From Gammaproteobacteria bacterium (GTDB taxonomy: Bacteria > Pseudomonadota > Gammaproteobacteria > Pseudomonadales > Pseudohongiellaceae), in NCBI GenBank assembly GCA_028825335.1, contig JAPKAI010000013.1:1-47531 (forward strand): a stretch of 47,531 bases of DNA. The letters are read 5' to 3'. Of the stretch, positions 24,591 through 37,412 are shown piece after piece. Numbering within the stretch: position 1 is the first letter of the stretch; the number at the start of each line of letters is the position of its first letter. The position numbers were made by a program, and so were the translations under genes. The notes beneath the pieces were generated by a model, which made no database searches, was not told the origin of the DNA, and saw nothing but the letters and a program-made list of their open reading frames with translations.

Positions 24591-25574
24591 CTAGTTTATA
24601 ACTGTTCTAAATCCAATATGACTTGTACCGAGGCCATTGTCTTGCGCTTCTCTAGCCGCCGGCCTGAATCGCAAGCAATAGTTTTCCGCACACAGATAAG
24701 ATCCACCCTTGATAACTTTTGCAGGCACACCGTCTGCGGAAGAGCCAAGCGATTGCTGCAGAGTAGGCCCAGTCGGATTTATTGCGTCTATTGGGTTGTG
24801 CTGCGGGGCATACCAGTTTGAGGTCCATTCCCAAACGTTGCCGATCAAGTCATAGGCGCCGTAGTCATTGGCGCCGAAACAACCTACAGGCGCCAAACCT
24901 TGATGACCATCTTCGGCATTGTCTTCTAGTGGGAATATGCCCTGCCAGGTATTTGCGTGATGCTGTCCGTGTGGGGCCAATTCGTTGCCATCCCAAGGGA
25001 ATACCGTATTGCGTCGGCTGCGTGCCGCAAGTTCGAATTGCGCCTCTGTAGGAAGCGAGCGACCTGCCCAACTGGCGTAGGCCTCCGCGTCCTCAAAGGC
25101 GACATGAATTACTGGATAGAGATCCCTTCCTTCAATGCCGCTACCGGGGCCATAGGGATGACGCCAATCAGTGCCCGGAATCCAAGACCACCCTTGGGTA
25201 GGATCTTGTCCAGACTCTCCAAGCGTGAATACAACTGAGCCAGCCCTAAGGAAATCTTCGGGTACATCACTCGGCCAATCAGCTGGGTCGGGAGAGCGCT
25301 CGGCCACTGTCACGTAGTCAGTTTCCGCAACAAAACTCGCGAACTGCACATTAGTGACTTCGTGTGCATCGATCCAGAAGCCATCTACTGAAACTCTGTG
25401 CACCGGGCCCTCCTCGGAGTAGAGTCTGTCGTCGCCCATAACGAAGTCCGCGCCGTTCACCCACACTGAAGCACCCGTTTCATCGAGGCACTGACTCGCG
25501 CTATGAGACTGAGCAAAGCCTGATTGACCTGCCATGAGTAGAATGAAGAGGGCGGTGATTGAAAAGGGTTTCAT
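24591..25574 (-). CDS. Exported formylglycine-generating enzyme (SUMF1/FGE family)
   Basis: A 327-aa protein with a Sec signal peptide (1-22) and a full FGE-sulfatase domain. FVMGDDRLYSEEGPVHRV opens the domain, LPTEAQFELAAR and GNVWEWTSNW follow. The catalytic cysteine pair is Cys295 and Cys300 in KGGSYLCAENYC, followed by LRFRPAAR. Those two cysteines separate true FGEs, which bind copper and use oxygen, from the many FGE-fold proteins without them. It should convert the Cys of C-x-P-S-R in sulfatases to formylglycine. It sits between two such sulfatases in one minus-strand cluster. The signal peptide implies that modification occurs in the periplasm, which is unusual in bacteria. Confidence 0.88.
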   Translation of the reverse strand: MKPFSITALFILLMAGQSGFAQSHSASQCLDETGASVWVNGADFVMGDDRLYSEEGPVHRVSVDGFWIDAHEVTNVQFASFVAETDYVTVAERSPDPADWPSDVPEDFLRAGSVVFTLGESGQDPTQGWSWIPGTDWRHPYGPGSGIEGRDLYPVIHVAFEDAEAYASWAGRSLPTEAQFELAARSRRNTVFPWDGNELAPHGQHHANTWQGIFPLEDNAEDGHQGLAPVGCFGANDYGAYDLIGNVWEWTSNWYAPQHNPIDAINPTGPTLQQSLGSSADGVPAKVIKGGSYLCAENYCLRFRPAAREAQDNGLGTSHIGFRTVIN

Positions 25575-25616
25575 AGTTAAGTTAGTGAGCTCAAGTTGTG
25601 GGAAGTAAATGCAAGC

Positions 25617-25655
25617 GAGGTCAGAGTAAGACTATCGGAAATTTACTCTGACCTC
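25617..25655. repeat. Perfect 13-bp inverted repeat with TCAGAGTAA core
   Basis: GAGGTCAGAGTAA (25617-25629) pairs perfectly with TTACTCTGACCTC (25643-25655) around a 13-nt loop. It lies in the 100-nt gap between the upstream sulfatase stop and the FGE start. It may act as a 3' end stabiliser or partial terminator. There is no T-run. The core recurs at 42078-42119 and, shorter, at 1644-1678. Confidence 0.7.
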
Positions 25656-25674
25656 ATCACTTACACCGCACCAA

Positions 25675-27219
25675 TTATATTACAGACTGATTGCGATGGT
25701 CGCCGAACTTTGGACGTACTACTTTCTTTAATGGAATATTCATACCGCCGGTAGATTCGAGCCAGTCATAGACTTCGTTTGCGTAGCCTGTGATGCGTTC
25801 TTGATGTTCAGGCGCGTCGATAAGGTTCTGCATCTCATAGGGGTCGGTTTGAAGGTCATAGAACTCATTAGTGTCCCACACGCCGTGGTAGCGAATGTAT
25901 TTGTAGCGTTGTGTGCGTATGCCGAACATGGTCGGAGTCTGCGGAAAATCCATCTCCCAGTAATATTCGTAAAAGATACGGTCGCGCCAGGCAACTTCTT
26001 CTCGGTTTAAAAGTGGGATAAAAGATGCGCCTTGCATATGAACTGGCATGGCCAAGCCTGCGGCCTCTAAGATAGTTGGTGCGATGTCTATATTCTGCAC
26101 CAAGGCATCGATCGGAGCTCCACCCTCAAGGTATGAAGGCCACCTAACTAACAGGGGTACTTTTGCCGACTCCTCATAGAAATGGCGCTTGTCTATCAGC
26201 CCATGTTCGCCGAAGGAGAAACCGTTGTCTCCCATGTAGATCACCAGCGTATCTTCAGCCAGTCCATTTGCATCCAGGTAATCCAATACTGCGCCCACGC
26301 TCTCATCAATGCCCATCAGAGTTTCGGTGTAACGCTGGAAGAACTCTTCGAATTCGATGTCACCATGGTACATGTAGTCGACTCCATGCCAGGATTCGCG
26401 CTGTTGCTTTACCCAGTCGGGGATTCGATTCTCGCCATAGTAGTCGCGCCCTCGTAGTGGCTCACTATCTGCATTGGCTGTAGGTAGTTCAGGAATGCCA
26501 TAGCTGGGAACATCAAAGCTAGGTGGATAGACGACGGCTTCGCCCTCGTAAAGACCTTGATGGCGCTCGGCTGGTTGAAATTGGGAATGCACAGCCTTGT
26601 GAGAGAGATACAGGAAGAATGGCTGGTCCTGCTCACGATTATCTAGCCAGTCGACGGCGTGTTCGGTTAAGACATCAGTGATGTAAGTGGATTCATCGTA
26701 CGTTGTACGCTCGCCATTGATATTAAGTGTTGGGCCATAGTAGACACCTTGCCCGCGAAAACTCTCCCAATGATCGAAACCCGGTTGCGGCTCGTCACTG
26801 TGGTTTCCCATATGCCACTTGCCGAAGTAGCTGGTCTGATATCCCGCTTCCTGCAGATACTCGGGAAAGAAAGTGAGGTTGCCAGGGTCGGGTGCGGCAT
26901 TGTCGATTACTGTATGAGTATGTGAATATAGGCCTGTGAGGATGGATGCCCGAGAGGGTGAGCACAGGGAGGTGGTGACATAGGTATTGGGGAAGTAGGC
27001 ACCCTCGCTAGCTAAACGATCCAAATTCGGAGTCTCCAACCACGGCACCTTGCCTGTAAAGCCCATGAAATCGAAGCGATGGTCGTCCGTCAGGATGTAG
27101 ATGACATTCTTTGGGCTGGCGTTCGCCAGCGGTTCCAAGCGCAACGGGTTATCTTCGCTGCTGCAACTTACTAGCAGGGCAGAAGCTAGACAGGTCGATA
27201 GAATTTGGATATTTCCCAT
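25675..27219 (-). CDS. Lipoprotein type I sulfatase
   Basis: A 514-aa sulfatase. The N-terminus is a lipoprotein signal with lipobox LVSC (lipid Cys19), so it should be membrane-anchored in the periplasm or outer membrane. Asp45-Asp46 in YILTDDHR bind the metal, and Cys86 in LCSPSRASILTG is the formylglycine residue. FGKWHMG and MGDNGFSFGEHG are the usual further active-site blocks, and HFYEESAKVPLLVRWP is typical of the arylsulfatase/polysaccharide sulfatase group. It lies 57 nt downstream of the NHL protein and 100 nt upstream of the FGE gene. Desulfation of a marine polysaccharide or small sulfate ester is plausible but not shown. Confidence 0.9.
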   Translation of the reverse strand: MGNIQILSTCLASALLVSCSSEDNPLRLEPLANASPKNVIYILTDDHRFDFMGFTGKVPWLETPNLDRLASEGAYFPNTYVTTSLCSPSRASILTGLYSHTHTVIDNAAPDPGNLTFFPEYLQEAGYQTSYFGKWHMGNHSDEPQPGFDHWESFRGQGVYYGPTLNINGERTTYDESTYITDVLTEHAVDWLDNREQDQPFFLYLSHKAVHSQFQPAERHQGLYEGEAVVYPPSFDVPSYGIPELPTANADSEPLRGRDYYGENRIPDWVKQQRESWHGVDYMYHGDIEFEEFFQRYTETLMGIDESVGAVLDYLDANGLAEDTLVIYMGDNGFSFGEHGLIDKRHFYEESAKVPLLVRWPSYLEGGAPIDALVQNIDIAPTILEAAGLAMPVHMQGASFIPLLNREEVAWRDRIFYEYYWEMDFPQTPTMFGIRTQRYKYIRYHGVWDTNEFYDLQTDPYEMQNLIDAPEHQERITGYANEVYDWLESTGGMNIPLKKVVRPKFGDHRNQSVI

Positions 27220-27275: not shown

Positions 27276-28412
27276 CTATTTGCGAGCCAATGGAACGGGT
27301 AATTGCAGCAGCTGGTCAGCATTAGCTTCAGGCTTTGGACTAAACTTCTGCGAACGCCCTAGCACATTGTCGGCGCCGTACCAGTTGCCGTTTATATCAA
27401 CACCAAATTCATGTAGCTCTCCAAACTCGCCTGGCTTATTCCCATGTGCATCCCAGGAGAACAATCTATTGCCATCTGTGTCAAATTTGATAATTCGTAC
27501 GGGCTGATTGTCAGATACCCACACGTCTTGATTTTCCGTGATCAAAATATAATTTGGAAAGTTCAAACCTGGCCAAGTTGCTAGGTGTTTCCCGTTAGGA
27601 CCGAACACTTGGATACGATCGTTATTTCGATCGGCAACATAGATGCGATCCTGATTGTCTGTTGCAATTGAATGCACGGCGTCAAACTGCCCCTGGCCGC
27701 TTCCCTCGCTTCCCCATGCGGTAAGGTAATTTCCATCTTTATCAAATTTGATTACTCGTGAATTGGTAAGCCCATCTGCAACAACTATGCTGCCGTCTCG
27801 AAGAAACGCAAGATCTTGTGGCGTCCCTAGATGTGTTCCATCGTTGGCTGTTTCATTTTCGATGCCAAGTGTCATCAACAACTCTTTGCCGTCATTTGAG
27901 AAGGCATGGATCTGATGGCGTCCAGAGTTTACGACCCACACTCGTCTCTCAGGATCATAAGGACTGATCGCTATCATGTGTGGCCCACCAGTGCCTTCAA
28001 ATAAATGGTCCCATTGATTCCAATTCTCAATGAGTTCTCCTTCGTCGTTAACGACAAAGATCACATTCTTCATTTGTCGAATTGTGCCTTCGGGCGGAGA
28101 CAGTGCGGACAAGCCTTCAACAGAGCCGTAAAAATAGTCGAATCCATCGGGTAGGGGGTCAGGGATGTGAAGCTCACCTCGTTGAATAACAAATATCCTT
28201 TCGCTCGACTCTACGAAAAGCCCAGGATGCGAGCCCCAAATAAAGCCAGGCTCTGAAAACGGCTCAAGCCATTCGGGCTCAGCACTATAAGGTGACTCGC
28301 CATGATTCGACGTTGGTGGATACTGATCGGTCCAGGACTGGGCGCTAACAGTAGAAGTTGTCATTGCTATGAGCGAGCAGCCTATAGCGGTAAAGGTTCC
28401 AAAAAGTCTCAT
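27276..28412 (-). CDS. Exported NHL-repeat beta-propeller protein
   Basis: A 378-aa protein with a Sec signal peptide (about 1-25). At least four NHL-type repeats are visible, with the pattern G-x-x-x-x-P-x-D-(I/L)-A followed by I-x-V-A-D-x-x-N-x-R-(I/V). Examples are GTPQDLAFL, IVVADGLTNSRVIKF and IYVADRNNDRIQVFG, with turns like FDKDGNYLTAWG between them. It should fold as a six-bladed propeller in the periplasm. Relatives include peptidyl-amidating lyase-like and sugar-binding proteins, and no catalytic residues can be fixed here. It is the first gene of the sulfatase cluster, so a role in binding or cleaving the same substrate is an inference. Confidence 0.82.
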   Translation of the reverse strand: MRLFGTFTAIGCSLIAMTTSTVSAQSWTDQYPPTSNHGESPYSAEPEWLEPFSEPGFIWGSHPGLFVESSERIFVIQRGELHIPDPLPDGFDYFYGSVEGLSALSPPEGTIRQMKNVIFVVNDEGELIENWNQWDHLFEGTGGPHMIAISPYDPERRVWVVNSGRHQIHAFSNDGKELLMTLGIENETANDGTHLGTPQDLAFLRDGSIVVADGLTNSRVIKFDKDGNYLTAWGSEGSGQGQFDAVHSIATDNQDRIYVADRNNDRIQVFGPNGKHLATWPGLNFPNYILITENQDVWVSDNQPVRIIKFDTDGNRLFSWDAHGNKPGEFGELHEFGVDINGNWYGADNVLGRSQKFSPKPEANADQLLQLPVPLARK

Positions 28413-28800: not shown

Positions 28801-28941
28801 ATGGGTGAGGAGTCGAAAAATAGTTCAGGCAAGCCGCAGTCGGGCTCCATCGGTTGGGGCCGCATCTACATAAGCGTTCTAATATTCACAGTAATCGTTA
28901 TTGTCTTGCTCTATTTCTTCTCACAATACTACAGCGGTTAA
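28801..28941 (+). CDS. 46-aa single-pass membrane protein, likely symporter accessory
   Basis: A 46-aa protein with a polar, Ser/Lys/Gly-rich start (residues 1-20) and one strongly hydrophobic helix (about 22-42). It ends SQYYSG. AGGAAAAG lies upstream of the ATG, and its TAA is only 3 nt before the symporter ATG, so the two must be translated together. Small single-helix partners are known next to several sodium:solute symporters and other secondary transporters. Assignment as such a partner is by position and topology, not by sequence match. Confidence 0.65.
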   Translation: MGEESKNSSGKPQSGSIGWGRIYISVLIFTVIVIVLLYFFSQYYSG

Positions 28942-28944
28942 CCC

Positions 28945-30609
28945 ATGCATCTCGTAGATTGGTCGATAGTTATCGCCTACCTTGCTTATGTTATCTGGCA
29001 TGGGCTAAAGCTCAGTCGCGGGACTACCGACACGGAAGGATTCTTTCTGGCAGGTCGTTCTCTTCCCTGGTGGGCGGTTGGCCTGTCGGTTATGGCGACA
29101 CAGATGTCAGCGATAACTTTGATTGGCACTACTGGGCAGGCCTACGAAGATGGCATGCGTTTCATCCAGTTTTATTTTGGCCTACCCCTAGCAATGATCA
29201 TCCTCTGCGTGACCGCGGTGCCTCTATTCTATCGAGCACGGGTGTTCACCGCTTACGAATACCTCGAGCAGCGCTTTGATGTAAAGACGCGCACCTTGAC
29301 GAGTTTCTTCTTTCTTCTTTCCCGCGGGCTTGGCGTTGGTGTAATCATCGCGGCTCCGGCTGTTGTACTGTCGATAGTCTTAGGTTGGGATGAGTTGGTG
29401 ACGATTTTCGTGATCGGGCTATCCACTACCCTCTATACCATGCTCGGAGGTGTGCAGTCGGTAACCTGGACCGATGTAAAGCAGATGGCCATTATCTTGG
29501 TAGGACTGAGCCTGTGTGTGTTTGTCATCATTACGAATCTTCCTGCGGGCGTGTCGTTTAATGACGCGATGAATGTTGCCGGCGCCGCCGGAAAGCTGGA
29601 GACCATAGATTTCAGCTTCGATCTCAATGAACGGTATACGTTTTGGTCAGGGACGATAGCCGCGTTATTTCTCTTCCTATCTTATTTCGGCTGCGACCAA
29701 AGCCAGGTGCAGCGCTATTTGACGGCACGCTCAGTTGATGAGGGGCGCGTCTCCCTACTCATGTCTGCCTTTCTGAAAATCCCAATGCAGTTTCTATTCC
29801 TGCTAGTCGGCATACTGGTCTTCGTTTTCTATCTATTTAGCACCCCACCGATGATCTTCAATGAAGTGGATGTGACTCGGGCGGCGGCAGTGCAGCCTCT
29901 CGAACACGAACGGCTGCAGGGAGAGTTTGCTGACGCACATCAGCTGCGGCACTTGGCGGCGTTGAGGTTTATAGAGCAGCAGAACACTGCAGAGGGGATT
30001 ACTGCTCGAGCGGACTATATTGCCGCCAACGAGGCCTATCAGGATAAGCGCCGTGAGGCGACCGAGTTTGTGCGGCAGACGAATGGCGATAGCTCGTTTA
30101 GCGACGTTAACTATGTGTTCCCCGTGTTTGTTATAGAGAATATGCCGCTGGGGTTAGTGGGGTTAATAGTCGCTGCGATTCTCGCCGCGGCGATGTCGAG
30201 CGTCGCGGCGGAACTTAACGCGCTGGCAACTGCATCTACTATGGATTTCTACCGCCGCCACATTAACGTTAATAGCTCGGAAAAAGAGATGCTTCGGTTC
30301 GGGCGATTGTCCACCTTGGCATGGGGCGTATTCGCCTGCATTATCGCCACCTTTGCGACTAATTTAGGTTCGCTAATCGAGGTTGTGAATACTTTCGGTT
30401 CGTTCTTCTACGGTTCCCTGTTAGGGGTCTTCGTGTTAGCTTTTGCGGTGCCTCGAGCCAAGTCGGCAGGAGCTTTTTACGGCTTGTTGTTCGGCATAGT
30501 GTCAGTCTGGATTGCCAGCTCAACTACCGACATTGCTTTTCTTTGGTTCAATGTTGTGGGTTGCTTGGTCACTGTCGCTGCGGGATACCTCATTAGCATT
30601 GTGCGGTGA
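28945..30609 (+). CDS. Sodium:solute symporter (SSS family)
   Basis: A 554-aa polytopic protein of SSS type. It has DWSIVIAYLAYVIWHG as the first helix and FFLAGRSLPWWAVGLSVMATQMSA, the family's helix 1-2 signature with the Na-site Ser/Thr region. YEYLEQRFD follows, then GGVQSVTWTDVKQ and SYFGCDQSQVQRYL. A hydrophilic insert at about 315-380 interrupts the helices. The family takes up sugars, amino acids, nucleosides or carboxylates with sodium. Substrate not predictable. It is the transporter of an operon with a PIG-L deacetylase 22 nt downstream and an ArgH-like lyase after that. Confidence 0.9.
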   Translation: MHLVDWSIVIAYLAYVIWHGLKLSRGTTDTEGFFLAGRSLPWWAVGLSVMATQMSAITLIGTTGQAYEDGMRFIQFYFGLPLAMIILCVTAVPLFYRARVFTAYEYLEQRFDVKTRTLTSFFFLLSRGLGVGVIIAAPAVVLSIVLGWDELVTIFVIGLSTTLYTMLGGVQSVTWTDVKQMAIILVGLSLCVFVIITNLPAGVSFNDAMNVAGAAGKLETIDFSFDLNERYTFWSGTIAALFLFLSYFGCDQSQVQRYLTARSVDEGRVSLLMSAFLKIPMQFLFLLVGILVFVFYLFSTPPMIFNEVDVTRAAAVQPLEHERLQGEFADAHQLRHLAALRFIEQQNTAEGITARADYIAANEAYQDKRREATEFVRQTNGDSSFSDVNYVFPVFVIENMPLGLVGLIVAAILAAAMSSVAAELNALATASTMDFYRRHINVNSSEKEMLRFGRLSTLAWGVFACIIATFATNLGSLIEVVNTFGSFFYGSLLGVFVLAFAVPRAKSAGAFYGLLFGIVSVWIASSTTDIAFLWFNVVGCLVTVAAGYLISIVR

Positions 30610-30631
30610 GAAAGAATTTTTGGGGAGAACA

Positions 30632-33265
30632 ATGTACAAAAAATATCATGCCCTGATTGCGTTGCTGATGCTAACAGTAGCAACGCCACTTTCAGTTGAA
30701 GCGCAAGTACGGGCCATCTACGACCAAGGAAGCGGCGCGCTGATTCGACAGTTGCTGCGCTTGAGCACTACTGCAAGCGTCATGCATACCGGTGCGCATC
30801 CCGACGACGAAGATTCAGCTTTGGTGGCCTACCATGCACGACGACTGCATGCGCGCACTGCCTACCTGTCGCTCACGCGTGGTTCCGGAGGGCAGAACAT
30901 CATCGGTGTTGAGCAGTCGGATGCGCTTGGCGTGATACGCACCGAGGAGCTGTTACAGGCTAGGAGCCTAGACGGAGCCGAGCAGCTATTTACGCGTGCT
31001 AACGACTTCGGGTTCTCCAAGTATCGGACAGAAGCCTCCCGCGTCTGGCCTGAAGAATTGCTACTCGATGACATGGTGCGCGCCATTAGAACATTTCGCC
31101 CTAACGTAATCGTGTCTCGCTGGAATGGCACCTCCGCCGATGGCCATGGGCATCACCAGTTTGCGGGTTACCTGACTCCTTTGGCTCTGGAAGCCGCGGC
31201 CGATTCGAGTCGATTCCCCGAGCAAATCGAGCAAGGTCTAACACCCTGGCATGTTCAGAAGTTTTATACAGGCCGGGCTTTCACAGGGAGCTCCCGCAAT
31301 GCCCAGGCAGCGGAACAGACGGCACTACTCATCAACACTGGTGAATACGACCCTGTAACCGGGCGTAGCTATTTTGAAATTGGCATGCAGGGTAGGAGTC
31401 AGCAGAAAACGCAGCAAATGGGTTCGCTAGAGCTGCGTGGTAGCCAGCAATCTCAGCTGTTTCTCCTATCATCGCAGATTGGTACGTCCGCCGCCGAAAG
31501 CTCCATCTTCTCGGGAATCGATACTACAATCAGTGGAATCTCGAATCTGGAGCAAGCCCCTGGGTTGGTATTCGTTGAATTGCTATCTGCGTTGCAGCAA
31601 AGTGTTGATGACTTAGTGTCCAACTATAATCCTCTGAACCCACAGGCTCTTATTCCTAGTCTTGTCGATGGGCTTGAACTCGCCCGTGAAGCAAGTGATG
31701 CAGCGCAAACGGGGGATGCGAAGCGACTACTCGATGAAAAAGTCAGCGAATTCGAGAAGGCTATTGTGCTCGCCGCCGGAGTCTCGATCGATGCGCTAGC
31801 CGAGTCGGAAACCGCGATTCCCGGCACTGTTTTGACAGTCGCGGTGCGAGCGTTCATGGCGCAGCCGTCGCAAGTTCTGCTGCGGGAGGCTTATCTTTCC
31901 GTTCCCGTAGGGTGGTCGGTCTCTAAGTCCAATGTTCAGATACTCAGTAATGAGCGCTCCTCCCGGCGCAGAGAACAGGGCGACGCCGAGCTGTTCTTCG
32001 ATGTCACCGTTCCCGTTACAGCCGATCCGACCGAGCCTTACTGGTTGGCATTACCACGTGAGGGCGCTGCCTATGATTGGAGTTCGGCAGGCGAGGCTCG
32101 CACACAGCCCTTCGCCGCGCCTCTGCTTCAGGCAGTAGTGACGCTTGAAATTGGCGGAACACAGATTACGATTCGGCAAGAGGTTGAGCATCGCCTGGTT
32201 GACCGCATTCGTGGCGAGATCCGGCGCCGGTTAGATGTGGTGTCGGCAATATCTGTAGAGCCGGGCACCGACCTTGTAGTAGTGCCAGTGTCTGCCGGCA
32301 ATGAACCTCGAGAGTTGTTATTGACTGTTCGTAATAATACTTCGCAGGAAGTAGCAGGTAGGGCGCAGTTCGAGGTGCCTCAGGGTTGGATGCTGGAGCC
32401 TCCTAGTGCCGAATTTTCCCTGGCAGCCGCGCCTGCGACTACTACGTTAGGATTTCGGGTAACTATGGCTCAAGGTGTCAGTGCAGGAGAATACAATCTG
32501 GCGGCCAGCGCCACAGTCGATGGCACACGGTACAAAAAGGCGATGACAGAAATCGCCTATCCTCATATTAGAACCCACCGCGTTTACTCGGCGTCAATCA
32601 CTGAATTCGAAGTCGTCGACGTGAGCGTCGCTGCCTCCCGAGTTGGCTACGTCATGGGTAGTGGCGATACCGTCCCTGAAGCGCTGCGCCGTCTTGGCGT
32701 GGAAGTCATGCTGTTAACCGACGCCGACTTAACTACTGGCGACCTTTCTGGCTTTGACGCTATCGTTGTGGGTATCAGGGCATCGCAGACTCGTGCTGCC
32801 TATGTCGCGAATAACCGGCGCCTTCTTGAATACGCGGAACAAGGCGGTAATTTGATCGTGCAGTATCAGCAGCCTGACTTCATCGCCAAGGGCCTCGCTC
32901 CCTATACGGCAAGCATGGATGGCAATGTACGCGTTGTTGATGAAACCGCTGCAATCGTGGTGCTCGAACCAGATCACCCGGTCTTTACCTTTCCCAATCG
33001 GATAGATGCTCGAGATTTCGATGGCTGGGTCCAAGAGCGTAGTAATTACAACTTTACCAGTTTCGATCGCGATCGCTATATTCCCCTCACCGAAGCGCAC
33101 GACCAAGGCGAACCCAATAGTGAGGGAGCCATGCTGTATGCAAAGATCGGTGACGGACATTACGTATACACATCCTATTCATGGTTCCGGCAGTTACCCA
33201 ACGGGGTACCCGGAGCCTATCGATTGTTCGCCAATCTACTGAGCCTGTCTGCCGCAGCTAACTAA
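30632..33265 (+). CDS. Exported PIG-L (LmbE-like) deacetylase with NEW3 and GATase-like domains
   Basis: An 877-aa protein with a Sec signal peptide (1-24). The PIG-L/LmbE deacetylase domain follows, with zinc-binding GAHPDDE at 54-60 and HGHHQ at 172-176. A central region (about 240-540) is unassigned. Residues about 545-640 (LLLTVRNNTSQEVAG, VPQGWMLEP) look like an NPCBM-associated NEW3-type beta domain. Residues about 670-770 (RVGYVMGSGDTVPEALRRLG, then GFDAIVVGIRA and YAEQGGNLIVQYQQ) resemble a ThuA/class I glutamine-amidotransferase-like fold. PIG-L enzymes remove N-acetyl groups from GlcNAc-type compounds. The ATG at 30632 has GGGGAG upstream. Three domains in one exported chain suggests glycan handling. 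Confidence 0.85.
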   Translation: MYKKYHALIALLMLTVATPLSVEAQVRAIYDQGSGALIRQLLRLSTTASVMHTGAHPDDEDSALVAYHARRLHARTAYLSLTRGSGGQNIIGVEQSDALGVIRTEELLQARSLDGAEQLFTRANDFGFSKYRTEASRVWPEELLLDDMVRAIRTFRPNVIVSRWNGTSADGHGHHQFAGYLTPLALEAAADSSRFPEQIEQGLTPWHVQKFYTGRAFTGSSRNAQAAEQTALLINTGEYDPVTGRSYFEIGMQGRSQQKTQQMGSLELRGSQQSQLFLLSSQIGTSAAESSIFSGIDTTISGISNLEQAPGLVFVELLSALQQSVDDLVSNYNPLNPQALIPSLVDGLELAREASDAAQTGDAKRLLDEKVSEFEKAIVLAAGVSIDALAESETAIPGTVLTVAVRAFMAQPSQVLLREAYLSVPVGWSVSKSNVQILSNERSSRRREQGDAELFFDVTVPVTADPTEPYWLALPREGAAYDWSSAGEARTQPFAAPLLQAVVTLEIGGTQITIRQEVEHRLVDRIRGEIRRRLDVVSAISVEPGTDLVVVPVSAGNEPRELLLTVRNNTSQEVAGRAQFEVPQGWMLEPPSAEFSLAAAPATTTLGFRVTMAQGVSAGEYNLAASATVDGTRYKKAMTEIAYPHIRTHRVYSASITEFEVVDVSVAASRVGYVMGSGDTVPEALRRLGVEVMLLTDADLTTGDLSGFDAIVVGIRASQTRAAYVANNRRLLEYAEQGGNLIVQYQQPDFIAKGLAPYTASMDGNVRVVDETAAIVVLEPDHPVFTFPNRIDARDFDGWVQERSNYNFTSFDRDRYIPLTEAHDQGEPNSEGAMLYAKIGDGHYVYTSYSWFRQLPNGVPGAYRLFANLLSLSAAAN

Positions 33266-33277
33266 GAGTATTACACC

Positions 33278-34750
33278 ATGAGTGAAAAATTCCCCGCCCA
33301 GGGATACAAAGATAACGTACTCAGCGACTGCTTTGCTGATGCCCAACGCTACTTTCTTGACCACTATGTGGATGTGGATCGTGCTCACGTGGTGATGCTT
33401 GCGGAGCAAAATATCATTACGGGCGAAGAGCTAAAGCTCATACTGCAGGCCATCGGGGGGCTGGATGTTGAGGCCATGCGCAACGCCGAATATGACGGCA
33501 GCGTGGAGGATCTGTTCTACTATATCCAGCGTGAAATCGCAGCAGGCTGCGGCAACTCCGATATTGCTGGTAAGGTGCACACCGCCCGTAGCCGCAACGA
33601 TATCGATGTTACGATTTACCGTTTGTATCTGCGGCAGCAGACGCTCGATTTAATTGAGGTTTGTTCTACGCTACACAATGTCTTTCTAGATCTGGCGGCA
33701 GCACATCACGAATCTCTAATGCCCGCTTACACTCATACCCAACCGGCACAACCTACCACTATCGCGCACTATCTTCTGGCGATGGCGGAAAACACCGGTC
33801 GCGACATAGCTCGAATACGGCGCGCCTACGAAAACATGAACCGCTGTCCGCTCGGTGCCTGTGCAATTACCACGACAGGATTCCCTATCGATAGAGCGCG
33901 GGTTGCAGATCTACTCGGCTTCGATGGGCCGACGCGAAACTCCTACGGTTCAATCGCCTCTGTGGACTATTTCACTGAGCTGCTCGGATCAGTTTCTGGC
34001 TTGCTTATTAACGTGGGCAAGTTTGCTCAAGAATTTCTGCTAATGGCGATGGTGGAATTCGATGTTATCCGCCTTCCAGACGGCTATGTACAGGCCTCAT
34101 CGATAATGCCGCAAAAGAGAAATCCGGTCGCTATCGAGCATGTGCGAGCGATTGCCAGTAAGGCTCTTGGCCAGGTGCTCGGTGTGCTGACGAGCGTTCA
34201 CAACACACCGTTTGGCGATATTAACGACGTCGAGGATGACCTTCAGCCACTCAACTTCTCAGCGCTTAGAGATTCGAATCGTGCGGTATCACTACTTGGG
34301 CATGCGCTGGCAGCGGCAGAATTCAATCTCGATTTACTTCGCGAAAGAGCCGAAGCCAACTTTATTACCGTTACGGAGCTCGCCGATACTATCGTGCGCC
34401 GGGAAAACCTTCCCTTCAGCAAGGCTCATGCGATTGTCGCTGATTGTGTGAAGCGAGCCACCGCTGCAGGCAGCGGCGTTAGCTTCGATATTCTACAAGC
34501 GGCGGCGAAGGAAGAAATCGGTAGAACCTTAGATTTGACTGCCAGCGAATTGGAAGAGGCCCTATCGGCTGAGAATTTTGTCCGCATTCGCACCATCTAT
34601 GGCGGACCCGCACCGGATGAAACAAAGGAGGCGCTAGCAGAGCAACGAGAAGCGCAAACGGGAAACAATGCTTGGCTGCTAGAGCGTCGAGGCAATCTGA
34701 AGCGAGCAAAAGAAAATTTGGATGCCCAAATAAAGTTAGCGCTGCTCTAA
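33278..34750 (+). CDS. Argininosuccinate lyase-like protein (fumarase/aspartase superfamily)
   Basis: A 490-aa lyase with the three conserved superfamily regions: HTARSRNDID at 101-110, AYTHTQPAQPTT at 150-161, and the signature SSIMPQKRNP at 274-283 with the catalytic serine loop. Overall it most resembles ArgH. The signature departs from ArgH at QKRNPVAIEH, where ArgH typically has QKKNPD, and it is somewhat longer than usual ArgH (about 460). It may be the biosynthetic enzyme or a paralogue cleaving another N-succinyl or fumarate-releasing compound. Its place 12 nt after an exported deacetylase and a symporter favours a catabolic role. No other arginine gene is near. Confidence 0.8.
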   Translation: MSEKFPAQGYKDNVLSDCFADAQRYFLDHYVDVDRAHVVMLAEQNIITGEELKLILQAIGGLDVEAMRNAEYDGSVEDLFYYIQREIAAGCGNSDIAGKVHTARSRNDIDVTIYRLYLRQQTLDLIEVCSTLHNVFLDLAAAHHESLMPAYTHTQPAQPTTIAHYLLAMAENTGRDIARIRRAYENMNRCPLGACAITTTGFPIDRARVADLLGFDGPTRNSYGSIASVDYFTELLGSVSGLLINVGKFAQEFLLMAMVEFDVIRLPDGYVQASSIMPQKRNPVAIEHVRAIASKALGQVLGVLTSVHNTPFGDINDVEDDLQPLNFSALRDSNRAVSLLGHALAAAEFNLDLLRERAEANFITVTELADTIVRRENLPFSKAHAIVADCVKRATAAGSGVSFDILQAAAKEEIGRTLDLTASELEEALSAENFVRIRTIYGGPAPDETKEALAEQREAQTGNNAWLLERRGNLKRAKENLDAQIKLALL

Positions 34751-35426: not shown

Positions 35427-36602
35427 TTATATCAGTTCACCCAAGGCTAGGATGGCATCTTTAAGTTGAAGGTCGCTCAGGTAGGGAGCGGGACCAAAGC
35501 GCAAGAACCCGTCTCTTTGGTCAGTCCATATATCCCTTTGTTTGAGTGCTTGTTGAATACTTGCTGCTTGATTGGTTCGAAGTGATAAAAATCCGGCTAT
35601 AGATTCTAAAGGAATATCGGCCCTCGAAATAAGTTTCTTATCACAATTGAGTTCATCAAAACTCATTCTAAGTATGCCGATTTGATGTTGGCTAAGTGTT
35701 CGCAAAAAATTGGGTGTGAGTTCTTTTTCTTCAAAAAAATCGATAACGGCACAGGCACGATAGTGGCTAATGGGATCGTAAGTGCTGCCCTGAAATCGAT
35801 CACCTCCTCGAGGGTACTGTGTTCGATTAAGGTCCGGCGTCTGTTCTAATTCACCGAATTCTGCATACCAGCCAGTCACTATCGGCCGTAGGTCGCATTG
35901 AGCCGGAATACGTAAAAAGCAATTACCTTCACCAAATTGGCAGTATTTATAGCCGCCCCCGACGAGGTAAGCGTTATCTAGGCCATTGGCTTTTACGTCA
36001 AATGGAAGAACGTTTAGTGCATGGTAAACATCCACCAATAAGGGGATGGCTTTTTCCGTAGTGGTTTCTCCCAATAATGCAAGATGGGGAATGATAACGG
36101 CATTTTTAAACATCACCGCTGACAACATAACTGCTGTCGTATTTTCAGTGATTTGGGCATTCATTCTCTCGCACAATGAGTCAAATGGAGAAACTGGTAC
36201 TCGAATTATTTCCACGCCTTCTTCTTCTAGCCGGTGAAGTTGTCGGCGCATGGAGTAAAACTCGCCATCAGTTGTTACGATACGTTTTCTTTTTCTCCAA
36301 TCGAGAGCGGAGAGAAAACGAACCAATAGATCGTGGGTATTTTGCGCCAATACATAATTTTCATGAGAGGAGTCTCCCAGTAGTTGAGCGTAGAACTGTT
36401 TTAGCTTGTCCGCTTTTTTAAAGGCCTTGCCCCATTTGTCATCGACTGATGCGGTTGCATCACGCCAAGCTTCTTGCAAGCCTAGCTGGGCGCGATCGGG
36501 CCATGCTTGATGTGAATGGCCCGTCAACAAAGTTCTTTGGGTAACAGAAAATTCTTTGTAGTGCTCGGAAATACTAAAATTGTCTAGCTGATTAGAAGTC
36601 AT
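35427..36602 (-). CDS. kynU: Kynureninase
   Basis: A 391-aa PLP enzyme of fold type I. Asp191 and His194 in VDVYHALN bind the cofactor, and Lys219 in GGGYKYCQFGEGN is the Schiff-base lysine, matching the kynureninase Y-K-Y block. The N-terminal TLLTGHSHQAWP and the later RGGDRFQGST are also family features. It cleaves L-kynurenine to anthranilate and alanine (or 3-hydroxykynurenine to 3-hydroxyanthranilate). Its ATG directly follows the kynA stop (TAAATG, no gap), so translation is coupled to kynA. No kynurenine formamidase gene is adjacent. Confidence 0.92.
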   Translation of the reverse strand: MTSNQLDNFSISEHYKEFSVTQRTLLTGHSHQAWPDRAQLGLQEAWRDATASVDDKWGKAFKKADKLKQFYAQLLGDSSHENYVLAQNTHDLLVRFLSALDWRKRKRIVTTDGEFYSMRRQLHRLEEEGVEIIRVPVSPFDSLCERMNAQITENTTAVMLSAVMFKNAVIIPHLALLGETTTEKAIPLLVDVYHALNVLPFDVKANGLDNAYLVGGGYKYCQFGEGNCFLRIPAQCDLRPIVTGWYAEFGELEQTPDLNRTQYPRGGDRFQGSTYDPISHYRACAVIDFFEEKELTPNFLRTLSQHQIGILRMSFDELNCDKKLISRADIPLESIAGFLSLRTNQAASIQQALKQRDIWTDQRDGFLRFGPAPYLSDLQLKDAILALGELI

Positions 36603-37412
36603 TTATAAACTCATACGAACTTGCCATAGATCTGGGAAAATCGGTTTATCTAGAGAGGCCATTAAATAGTTTGCTCCCTCTGATCCGCCGGTGCCTTGCT
36701 TCATTCCTATCGTTCTTTGAACCATTTTCACGTGGCGGTAACGCCATTCCTGAATGCCTTCATCGAGATCAATTAGCGATTCACATAATTGAGTTAGCTT
36801 CGGATCTGTGTGGTAAATTTCCTCAAGAATTTTGACGATAGGATCACTTGCGACTATTTCAGACTGCGACACCGTTGCTAACATTTCTTTTGGCACTGAG
36901 TACCCACGTCCGGCAACAAAGTTTAAAAAAGCATCCCAAAGGCTTGGGTTCTTTAGCCTAGTCTTAAGACTTGCAAATTCTTTGCTGTCTGGGGAGTAGC
37001 GGCTCAATACCGATTCTCTTTTATATCCAAGAGCAAATTCGATCTCTCGAAATTGAACGCTCTGAAGTCCGCTTGCGGAGTCCAAGCGGCTACGAAATGC
37101 ACTAAAATCCTGGGGTGTCATTGTCTCAATAACATCAACTTGAGAGACCATAACCTTTATGATATTACGAACACGCTTTAGTACGTGTAGTGTACGGCCC
37201 AGATCCCCTGTGTGGAGTTGTTTGCAAACAAAGTCTAGCTCGTGCAGCAATTGCTTAAACCAAAGCTCAAATACTTGATGGATGATGATGAACAATAGTT
37301 CGTCATGTTCCGCGCCATCGGGGTTATCCTGCGAGCGCGGCTCTTGAGCATTGAGTATTTTTTCGAGTAGTAAATAACTGCTATAGTTTGTTGCTTGGTC
37401 TTCTTTACTCAT
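36603..37412 (-). CDS. kynA: Tryptophan 2,3-dioxygenase
   Basis: A 269-aa haem protein. The N-terminal YSSYLLLEKIL and EHDELLFIIIHQVFELWFKQ blocks are signature tryptophan-dioxygenase sequences, with His45 as the distal, substrate-side histidine. The C-terminal WRYRHVKMVQRTIG contains the proximal haem ligand His227, followed by KQGTGGSEGANYL, the substrate loop. It opens the tryptophan ring with oxygen to N-formylkynurenine, the first step of the kynurenine route. Its ATG overlaps the stop of a 49-aa ORF (ATGA), and its own stop abuts the kynU ATG. Ribosome binding before the ATG is poor, which fits translational coupling. Confidence 0.93.
   Translation of the reverse strand: MSKEDQATNYSSYLLLEKILNAQEPRSQDNPDGAEHDELLFIIIHQVFELWFKQLLHELDFVCKQLHTGDLGRTLHVLKRVRNIIKVMVSQVDVIETMTPQDFSAFRSRLDSASGLQSVQFREIEFALGYKRESVLSRYSPDSKEFASLKTRLKNPSLWDAFLNFVAGRGYSVPKEMLATVSQSEIVASDPIVKILEEIYHTDPKLTQLCESLIDLDEGIQEWRYRHVKMVQRTIGMKQGTGGSEGANYLMASLDKPIFPDLWQVRMSL

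Follow-up and report, generated by a model that had tools for sequence, protein, structure and literature searches.

What compound would a bacterium handle with a sodium symporter, an exported amidase-like protein and a relative of argininosuccinate lyase, all encoded side by side? The question arises from the genome of a gammaproteobacterium related to marine Pseudohongiella, in which we analysed one stretch of 47,531 nucleotides (hereafter the window). Four open reading frames on the + strand, separated by gaps of 3, 22 and 12 nt, constitute a single operon, as had been claimed in the original prediction:

28801..28941, + strand: first gene, coding for a 46-aa protein with one hydrophobic segment by eye, kept upstream of the symporter gene in relatives
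28945..30609, + strand: sodium:solute symporter (SSF) of 554 aa, assigned by profile matches; proposed glucosaminyl-malate importer
30632..33265, + strand: exported PIG-L (LmbE-like) protein of 877 aa, with an ATG start at 30632, assigned by Pfam, AlphaFold model and metal-site motif
33278..34750, + strand: ArgH/EDDS-lyase-related fumarate-type lyase of 490 aa, assigned by profiles, tree and the signature VQASSIMPQKRNPV; proposed glucosaminyl-malate lyase

Searches for promoters and terminators between positions 28300 and 35500 gave no matches exceeding those in shuffled sequence.

Transporter and amidase components

The symporter passes the SSF domain cut-off (Pfam SSF, E 6.1e-49). tblastn searches over long stretches detected homologues of the 46-aa ORF upstream of the symporter gene in five of seven relatives, at 38-67% identity (L096, L097, L098, L100 and L101, with none in L099 or L102). 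A Pfam scan of the 46-aa protein gave no match. It is probably a small accessory subunit.

The 877-aa protein has an N-terminus that resembles a signal peptide by eye and a PIG-L domain recognized by Pfam (E 1.9e-13). The three-part make-up initially proposed, with PIG-L, NEW3-like and ThuA/GATase-like regions, was borne out by an AlphaFold model (mean pLDDT 89.7) and structure searches, the NPCBM_assoc/NEW3 match (E 1.2e-4) scoring 22.7 bits against a curated cut-off of 24.4. In the model, the PIG-L domain spans residues 45-299 or so (Z 22.2 with MshB and 19.7 with BshB) and the C-terminal ThuA/GATase-like domain approximately residues 667-877 (Z 15-16.6), with a beta-rich region in between. 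The metal-site motif (HxDD + H) characteristic of LmbE/PIG-L metallo-amidases is formed by H56, D58, D59, H172 and H175.

The fold and the metal-site motif are shared with Bca, Mca and BshB/MshB of the LmbE/PIG-L superfamily. Unlike these enzymes, the 877-aa protein is exported, carries two extra regions and has a symporter and a lyase as partners. Up to E 0.01, it matches a single NCBIfam family, Mca (TIGR03446), at 42.5 bits, far under the cut-off of 277.15, and the BshB equivalogs TIGR04000 and TIGR04001 gave no match in the same search. It also lacks the counterpart of BshB Arg109, a residue that published work, as far as consulted, describes as important in substrate binding: by eye, without pairwise alignment, this position corresponds to Gly171, directly before the first His of HxxH. 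The PIG-L enzymes covered by the parts of the review literature consulted are mostly deacetylases. GalB, a hydratase, fits the PIG-L fold of the model as well as BshB does (Z 19.6 and 19.7, respectively), and the C-terminal half of the model resembles N-acetyl-beta-phenylalanine acylase (Z 14.0). The fold thus serves other chemistry too, and a different substrate is possible. The first step may be the cleavage of a Cys amide, as by Mca or Bca, instead of a deacetylation.

A lyase distinct from canonical ArgH

The lyase matches Lyase_1 (1.3e-43) and ASL_C2 (1.7e-10) in Pfam and exceeds the cut-off of the argH profile TIGR00838 (331.9 and 279.5 bits, respectively), yet it is not a canonical ArgH. 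In our tree it belongs to a 29-row clade (support 100/98) apart from ArgH and EDDS lyase, while canonical ArgH proteins form another clade of 30 rows (100/100); TIGR00838 therefore does not separate the two. Eight columns are near-fixed in ArgH (E. coli numbering: H85, G153, D287, L291, G297, K311, G312 and Y317). Each of them has the ArgH residue in 26-29 of 29 canonical rows and a different one in 28-29 of the 29 rows of the lyase clade, where the new residues are themselves near-fixed (for example, Asp for Tyr317 and His for Lys311). The WGGRF-type N-terminus is also absent from this lyase. As had been anticipated, the lyase carries the non-ArgH signature QKRNPV (residues 279-284) and falls outside canonical ArgH, and the host genome harbours a second argH, with a canonical signature, on contig C98, where it is interrupted by the contig end.

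The lyase nevertheless belongs to the same family as ArgH and EDDS lyase by sequence. It keeps S105 R106 N107, T152 H153, S274 S275, K280 and N282, the catalytic-type residues conserved in the fumarate-forming aspartase/fumarase superfamily. Members of this family mostly release fumarate, and a fumarate-forming elimination would be expected here as well. The best PDB sequence match, 6g3d, is EDDS lyase, although deposited under the name argininosuccinate lyase. The EDDS lyase sequence groups with three plasmid sequences outside the lyase clade (94/75), on a long branch. A more distant relative in Agrobacterium (L187), also outside the clade, is encoded beside a fructoselysine-type deglycase and a kinase, both below their cut-offs, with an asparaginase gene a few genes upstream. 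The lyases of family f63, at 36-38%, appear to be canonical, as judged from L208 alone plus L207 of another family, both with the WGGRF start.

Homologous loci and the host genome

The PIG-L, symporter and lyase genes remain grouped within the genus. Among 80 loci with homologues of the PIG-L gene, 52, from several phyla as judged by record titles, harbour a symporter homologue at most about 1.2 kb away, and outside the genus the symporter is mostly the sole partner of PIG-L. No symporter gene is visible in the other 28 loci, 17 of which had room for one. No lyase gene was found beside the PIG-L gene in 71 homologous loci outside the genus, some of them incomplete. The conserved neighbourhood foreseen for the operon thus holds for the three genes within the genus, and for lyase and PIG-L on plasmids (see below), but not for the lyase in those 71 loci. 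Taken with its separate clade and the second argH, the lyase is neither a canonical ArgH nor the sole argH of the genome, nor is it devoid of conserved neighbours.

The likeness to bacillithiol enzymes extends to the genetic surroundings: bshB- and bshA-type genes adjoin the PIG-L gene in five of the 80 loci. Four of these (L061, L086, L087 and L089) code for PIG-L, symporter, a short BshC-like protein, and BshB1-like and BshA-like proteins, some of them in pieces in L086. In L027, BshB-like and BshA genes lie upstream of the PIG-L gene and the symporter is absent, so that the link there concerns PIG-L alone. BshA scores above its cut-off in all three loci scanned for it (L061, L089 and L027). 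The best structural match of the short protein is BshC (4wbd, Z 13.3; next match 10.8), and Pfam found nothing of note in three such proteins, apart from one chance match at E 0.05; structural similarity alone thus suggests a relation to BshC.

At the genome level, 47 genomes do not belong to the Pseudomonadales-type group; 42 of them match the BshC profile, 37 above the cut-off. As BshC is also present in 196 of 198 sampled Bacteroidota, its co-occurrence with PIG-L is largely a property of the phyla concerned, and we discarded it as non-discriminating evidence. No BshC was detected in any of 59 genomes, including that of the host, whose assembly is 93% complete, and the host's only BshA candidate is a sub-cut-off glycosyltransferase; synthesis of bacillithiol by the host itself was rejected on these grounds. 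The host has one clear ROK protein and no recognisable NagB, the main match of the NagB-II profile being GlmS. Its other PIG-L protein (242 aa, contig C12) is encoded beside what appear by eye to be polysaccharide ABC exporter genes, not bsh genes.

The lyase has neighbours of its own elsewhere. Among the best 26 of 275 lyase plasmid records, 21 show a large PIG-L gene within about 7 kb, beside sugar ABC importers, and 5 show none; the same 21 rank highest among the plasmid records for PIG-L. Many of the listed plasmid entries label the lyase homologue argH. We read the neighbours of 16 alphaproteobacterial and Deinococcus loci of the clade: all contain parts of sugar ABC importers, 9 a PIG-L gene, 8 a sugar kinase gene and 2 a glucosamine-6-phosphate deaminase gene. 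The two deaminases are of unrelated types; the NagB-II-type one scores 313 bits against a curated cut-off of 430, yet it matches a glucosamine-6-phosphate deaminase of solved structure (3.6e-64). Where the PIG-L start was read, in four alphaproteobacterial clusters, the protein has no signal peptide and an ABC importer replaces the symporter. Sugar-uptake genes predominate around the lyase in the clade loci read outside the genus. In three Acidobacteria, a lyase at 48-49% is encoded, next to a second PIG-L gene in one of them; all three carry BshC, and the lyase is therefore not simply a sign of a non-producer.

A possible route for bacillithiol breakdown

PIG-L proteins act mostly on N-acylglucosamine and the lyase family mostly yields fumarate; together with the glucosamine-related neighbours, this makes bacillithiol or an N-acylglucosaminyl-malate the known compound that fits. 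We lean towards the view that the operon scavenges such a compound from neighbouring bacteria, with the substrate, the order of steps, the fumarate product, and the cargo and direction of transport all inferred. In the periplasm, the exported PIG-L protein would hydrolyse the amide bond at the nitrogen of glucosamine and set free cysteine or its conjugate, or else some other acyl group. Glucosaminyl-malate would then be taken up together with sodium by the symporter, perhaps assisted by the 46-aa protein, and in the cytoplasm the lyase would eliminate glucosamine from C2 of malate to yield fumarate and glucosamine. Fumarate would enter the citric acid cycle, and glucosamine would be phosphorylated by a kinase encoded elsewhere in the genome. 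The outline originally put forward, deacetylation outside, import with sodium and cleavage inside, thus remains the best reading of a putative function, except that its first step is possibly not a deacetylation.

The PIG-L protein might instead deacetylate GlcNAc-malate, the product of BshA, or another N-acyl form, rather than remove the cysteine of bacillithiol. The prevalence of deacetylases among PIG-L enzymes and the structural matches to MshB and BshB speak for this, and the lyase, kinase and deaminase steps would be unchanged. We nevertheless regard it as unlikely: the one NCBIfam match is to Mca, far below the cut-off, and Arg109 of BshB is not conserved by eye. GlcNAc-malate is an intermediate of the pathway and is not known to occur in the environment, which also counts against it.

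A role of the lyase as a C-N lyase, forming fumarate and an amino sugar from an N-glycosylated or Amadori-type aspartate, seems less probable still. Both ArgH and EDDS lyase cleave C-N bonds, and the Agrobacterium relative sits with Amadori-type genes and an asparaginase; however, that relative is outside the clade, the two deaminases seen within the clade are of the glucosamine-6-phosphate type, and an Amadori compound would not need a PIG-L amidase. We give very little credence to a unit for the catabolism of a metallophore or chelator, akin to EDDS breakdown: the best PDB match is EDDS lyase, but its sequence groups elsewhere, and neither a PIG-L amidase nor sugar importers, sugar kinases or NagB would suit a chelator. 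That the lyase is an argininosuccinate lyase, ordinary or duplicated, lying by chance beside the symporter/PIG-L pair, as the TIGR00838 score and the argH annotations would have it, is highly improbable given the separate clade, the near-fixed differences, the separate argH and its recurrence near PIG-L genes across distant lineages.

Returning to the scavenging of bacillithiol-type compounds, we see about an even chance that the loci represent an as yet undescribed bacillithiol catabolic route in Pseudohongiella-like bacteria, Alphaproteobacteria, Deinococcus and some Acidobacteria, made up of an amidase, a transporter, a fumarate-forming glucosaminyl-malate (C-O) lyase from the ArgH superfamily, a glucosamine kinase and a glucosamine-6-phosphate deaminase. 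In MurNAc/GlcNAc catabolism (kinase, etherase MurQ, NagA, NagB), an oxygen-joined acid is likewise removed from an amino sugar, with phosphorylation and deamination following; here, in contrast, malate would leave as fumarate through an ArgH-type lyase, not lactate through MurQ. Amadori catabolism (Fra/Frl operons) also combines a sugar kinase with a SIS-domain enzyme, and one such cluster holds the ArgH-like relative L187, whereas the lyase clade is accompanied by NagB-type deaminases (two loci) and PIG-L amidases.

From gene distribution, it has been concluded that no other low-molecular-weight thiols may be as widespread among organisms as bacillithiol and its derivatives (2018; PMC6282198). 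Bacillithiol breakdown, in the portions of the literature consulted, goes as far as the conjugate amidase and a presumed recycling of glucosaminyl-malate, and among the open-access articles listed, the titles and abstract openings mention no bacillithiol-consuming pathway. A glucosaminyl-malate lyase, if true, would open up bacillithiol catabolism, place a C-O lyase next to ArgH and other C-N lyases, and show a class of plasmid-borne 'argH' genes to be misannotated. Bacillithiol would then also serve as a public nutrient, with non-producers feeding on an antioxidant made by the bacillithiol-making phyla.

The four-gene unit and the PIG-L protein

The unit that we propose as a scavenging operon for bacillithiol (Cys-GlcN-malate) or N-acylglucosaminyl-malate comprises four genes separated by gaps of 3, 22 and 12 nt:

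28801-28941, plus strand, 46-aa protein with one hydrophobic segment, first gene of the unit
28945-30609, plus strand, sodium:solute symporter
30632-33265, plus strand, 877-aa PIG-L protein with a signal-peptide-like start
33278-34750, plus strand, ArgH-family lyase

The window is contig C44 of the host assembly (2.97 Mb in 195 contigs). It also harbours a minus-strand sulfatase gene with an adjoining FGE-sulfatase-type (formylglycine-generating) gene (24591-27219) and, on the minus strand, a tryptophan 2,3-dioxygenase gene (below the equivalog cut-off) adjoining a class-V aminotransferase/kynureninase-like gene (35427-37412). The closest homologues of the window come from records titled Pseudomonadales, Gammaproteobacteria, Halieaceae or Pseudohongiella, hereafter called Pseudomonadales-type. 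PIG-L homologues were found in 9 of 97 relatives searched, own genome counted, all of the same genus.

In a 43-row PIG-L alignment, D58, D59, H172 and H175 are kept in all rows and H56 in at least 90% of them. The AlphaFold model of the protein (mean pLDDT 89.7) matches MshB (Z 22.2), LnmX (21.3) and BshB (19.7) over residues ~45-299 and ThuA/GATase-like proteins over residues 667-877; MshB and LnmX are also the top matches by Foldseek and by sequence profile. The substrate cannot be read from the fold by itself, because the hydratase GalB appears in the same match list (Z 19.6) and the C-terminal half matches N-acetyl-beta-phenylalanine acylase (Z 14.0). Assignment as BshB or as Mca was set aside, the protein being an equivalog of neither and the counterpart of BshB Arg109 being, by eye, Gly171.

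Among the best 80 loci of at least 575 PIG-L relatives in the species collection, 52 harbour a symporter homologue within ~1.2 kb of the PIG-L gene (two pieces in L086 were counted as one gene). It lies upstream in 8 Pseudomonadales-type loci and downstream in 44 others, on the same strand in 38 of the latter and on the opposite strand in 6, five of which have one intervening gene. No nearby symporter was found in 28 of the 80 loci, 17 of them extending 1.8 kb or more on each side; none of the 80 yielded a further symporter match elsewhere. The record titles include Acidobacteria, Gemmatimonadota, Bacteroidota, Ignavibacteria and Opitutaceae/Limisphaerales. The cargo of the symporter is a guess from gene position. 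By eye, PIG-L genes of Gemmatimonadota-type loci (L034, L049, L050, L052, L055, L070, L071 and L082) lie near BMP/nucleoside-type ABC importer-like genes, and in L042, L050, L052, L055 and L071 a ~390-aa solute-binding-like protein is encoded between PIG-L and an opposite-strand symporter.

A lyase clade separate from canonical ArgH

Among PDB sequences, the lyase matches ArgH and EDDS lyase best, the latter being deposited as argininosuccinate lyase. In a 64-row tree, from which one partial row was dropped, the window lyase belongs to a 29-row clade (support 100/98) whose sequences are of Pseudomonadales-type, Acidobacteria, alphaproteobacterial or Deinococcus origin. Canonical ArgH forms a separate 30-row clade (100/100) that holds the E. 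coli and T. thermophilus proteins and the own argH of two Pseudomonadales-type relatives. EDDS lyase groups with three plasmid sequences on long branches (94/75), and the sister of the lyase clade is a haloarchaeal plasmid sequence (99/96). The gene for the latter (Haladaptatus, L112:9691-11178) neighbours MFS transporter and mandelate racemase/muconate lactonizing-type genes.

Comparison of 29 clade rows with 29 canonical rows revealed eight columns near-fixed to different residues: F80 (H in ArgH), A150 (G), V284 (D), H288 (L), S294 (G), H308 (K), N309 (G) and D314 (Y). Conserved in both groups are S105, R106, N107, T152, H153, S274, S275, K280 and N282, which we take to be catalytic or succinate-binding. 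The second ArgH homologue of the host, cut by the end of contig C98, has the canonical GSSIMPQKKNPD signature. The window lyase exceeds the NCBIfam argH cut-off, which would explain argH labels on its homologues.

The lyase gene follows PIG-L in 8 of 9 Pseudomonadales-type loci, the ninth being cut, and lies beside it in none of the 71 other loci, some of them cut; the window order of symporter, PIG-L and lyase recurs in all 7 relatives that were read over longer stretches. Among the 50 genomes from the 80 loci, three Pseudomonadales-type and three Acidobacteria genomes (two titled Bryobacteraceae, one Candidatus Sulfopaludibacter) carry a close lyase copy; the others have ArgH-like matches at 26-35% only, or none at 1e-20. 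One Acidobacteria copy neighbours a second PIG-L gene, one a TonB-dependent receptor-like gene and one neither. A sample of 299 genomes from the phylum contained 15 with a lyase match at 1e-75, and identity of at least 40% is limited to the own genome and to three genomes of a single family. Each of these three harbours the lyase gene together with genes for PIG-L, a binding protein, permease(s) and a UgpC-type ATPase.

A plasmid search yielded 275 records matching the lyase. Among the best 40, the first 26 are all alphaproteobacterial, and 21 of these also carry a large PIG-L, with match starts at most ~7 kb apart; the same 21 are the first PIG-L plasmid records listed. They do not represent 21 independent events, since nine are Aminobacter records. 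In a Rhizobium plasmid (L186:7941-9519), a lyase gene is annotated as two overlapping pieces.

Sugar genes around the lyase clade

Of 18 plasmid regions fetched (L188 without annotation), 13 are clade members, and three chromosomal loci bring the clade total to 16 (L107-L111, L178-L185, L204-L206). The remaining five plasmid regions (L112, L186-L189) are outside the clade or absent from the tree. Sugar ABC importer parts are present in 16/16, a PIG-L gene in nine (only a small one in L185) and a PfkB or ROK sugar kinase in eight. A ROK kinase gene is followed by NagB in the Paroceanicella locus (242.1 bits, cut-off 236.9) and by a SIS-type NagB-II in the Roseomonas locus (313 bits, below the cut-off of 430), the latter matching a solved glucosamine-6-phosphate deaminase at 3.6e-64; neither locus has PIG-L within the stretch read. 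NagB and NagB-II are unrelated enzymes, and their occurrence at the same position for one and the same step points to glucosamine-6-phosphate as a pathway intermediate. The PIG-L proteins of L107, L109, L110 and L111 lack a signal-peptide-like start, so that amide hydrolysis there probably follows uptake of the whole compound.

An Agrobacterium plasmid region (L187:4494-9315) encodes a PrpD-like protein, an ArgH-like lyase and a fructoselysine-type deglycase and kinase, with an asparaginase a few genes upstream; the cluster possibly serves to break down an Amadori aspartate compound with formation of fumarate.

Bacillithiol genes and the proposed chemistry

Four PIG-L loci, L061, L086 and L087 (Opitutaceae) and L089 (Limisphaerales), share the order PIG-L, symporter, short protein (about 258-283 aa), BshB1-like deacetylase and BshA, some genes of L086 being in pieces. 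In L027 (Acidobacteria), BshB-like and BshA genes directly precede PIG-L, with no symporter. BshA is above the cut-off in the three of these five loci scanned (L061, L089, L027); the sole BshB1-like protein scanned, that of L061, is below it (113 bits, cut-off 182.5). The short proteins, with a structure match to BshC 4wbd, are encoded at:

L061:12294-13067
L087:6308-7084
L089:7849-8619
L086:12402-13103

Pfam gave no match of note for the short protein. Its model (mean pLDDT 69.4) has BshC 4wbd as best structure match (Foldseek 4.6e-8; Z 13.3 over 225 aligned residues, next 10.8), and it is possibly a minimal cysteine ligase.

The BshC profile matches 42 of the 50 PIG-L-carrying genomes, 37 of them above the cut-off. 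No match was found in 3 Pseudomonadales-type and 5 other genomes of the 50, three of the latter carrying the short BshC-like protein. This co-occurrence is weak evidence alone, because 196 of 198 sampled Bacteroidota match BshC whatever other genes are present. BshC is absent from all 59 genomes comprising the own genome and relatives. A divergent BshC-like frame in Geothrix (L176:6708-7937) is matched by the profile in weak pieces only.

The usual reaction of ArgH-type lyases is elimination of a substituent at C2 of a succinate, with formation of fumarate; profile matches of the lyase to XcbC and others indicate further types of reaction in the wider family. The product side of the lyase loci points to glucosamine. 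The known natural compound with all three parts, acyl group, glucosamine and succinate-type acid, is bacillithiol or a GlcN/GlcNAc-malate form. Bacillithiol is described as Cys-GlcN-malate (PMC4360819), and a review passage gives the substrate core of LmbE-like enzymes identified up to 2014 as N-acetylglucosamine, or N-acylglucosamine for Mca and Bca (PMC4101496). With L-malate O2-linked to glucosamine, elimination across C2-C3 would yield fumarate and glucosamine. In the incomplete host assembly, one clear ROK protein but no NagB was found, so the host might instead channel glucosamine into cell-wall precursors. Bacillithiol producers can turn glucosaminyl-malate back into bacillithiol, possibly the reason that most of them do not need the lyase; restriction of the lyase to non-producers is not a strict rule, since three Acidobacteria have both BshC and lyase. 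Non-producers such as the host would have to break glucosaminyl-malate.
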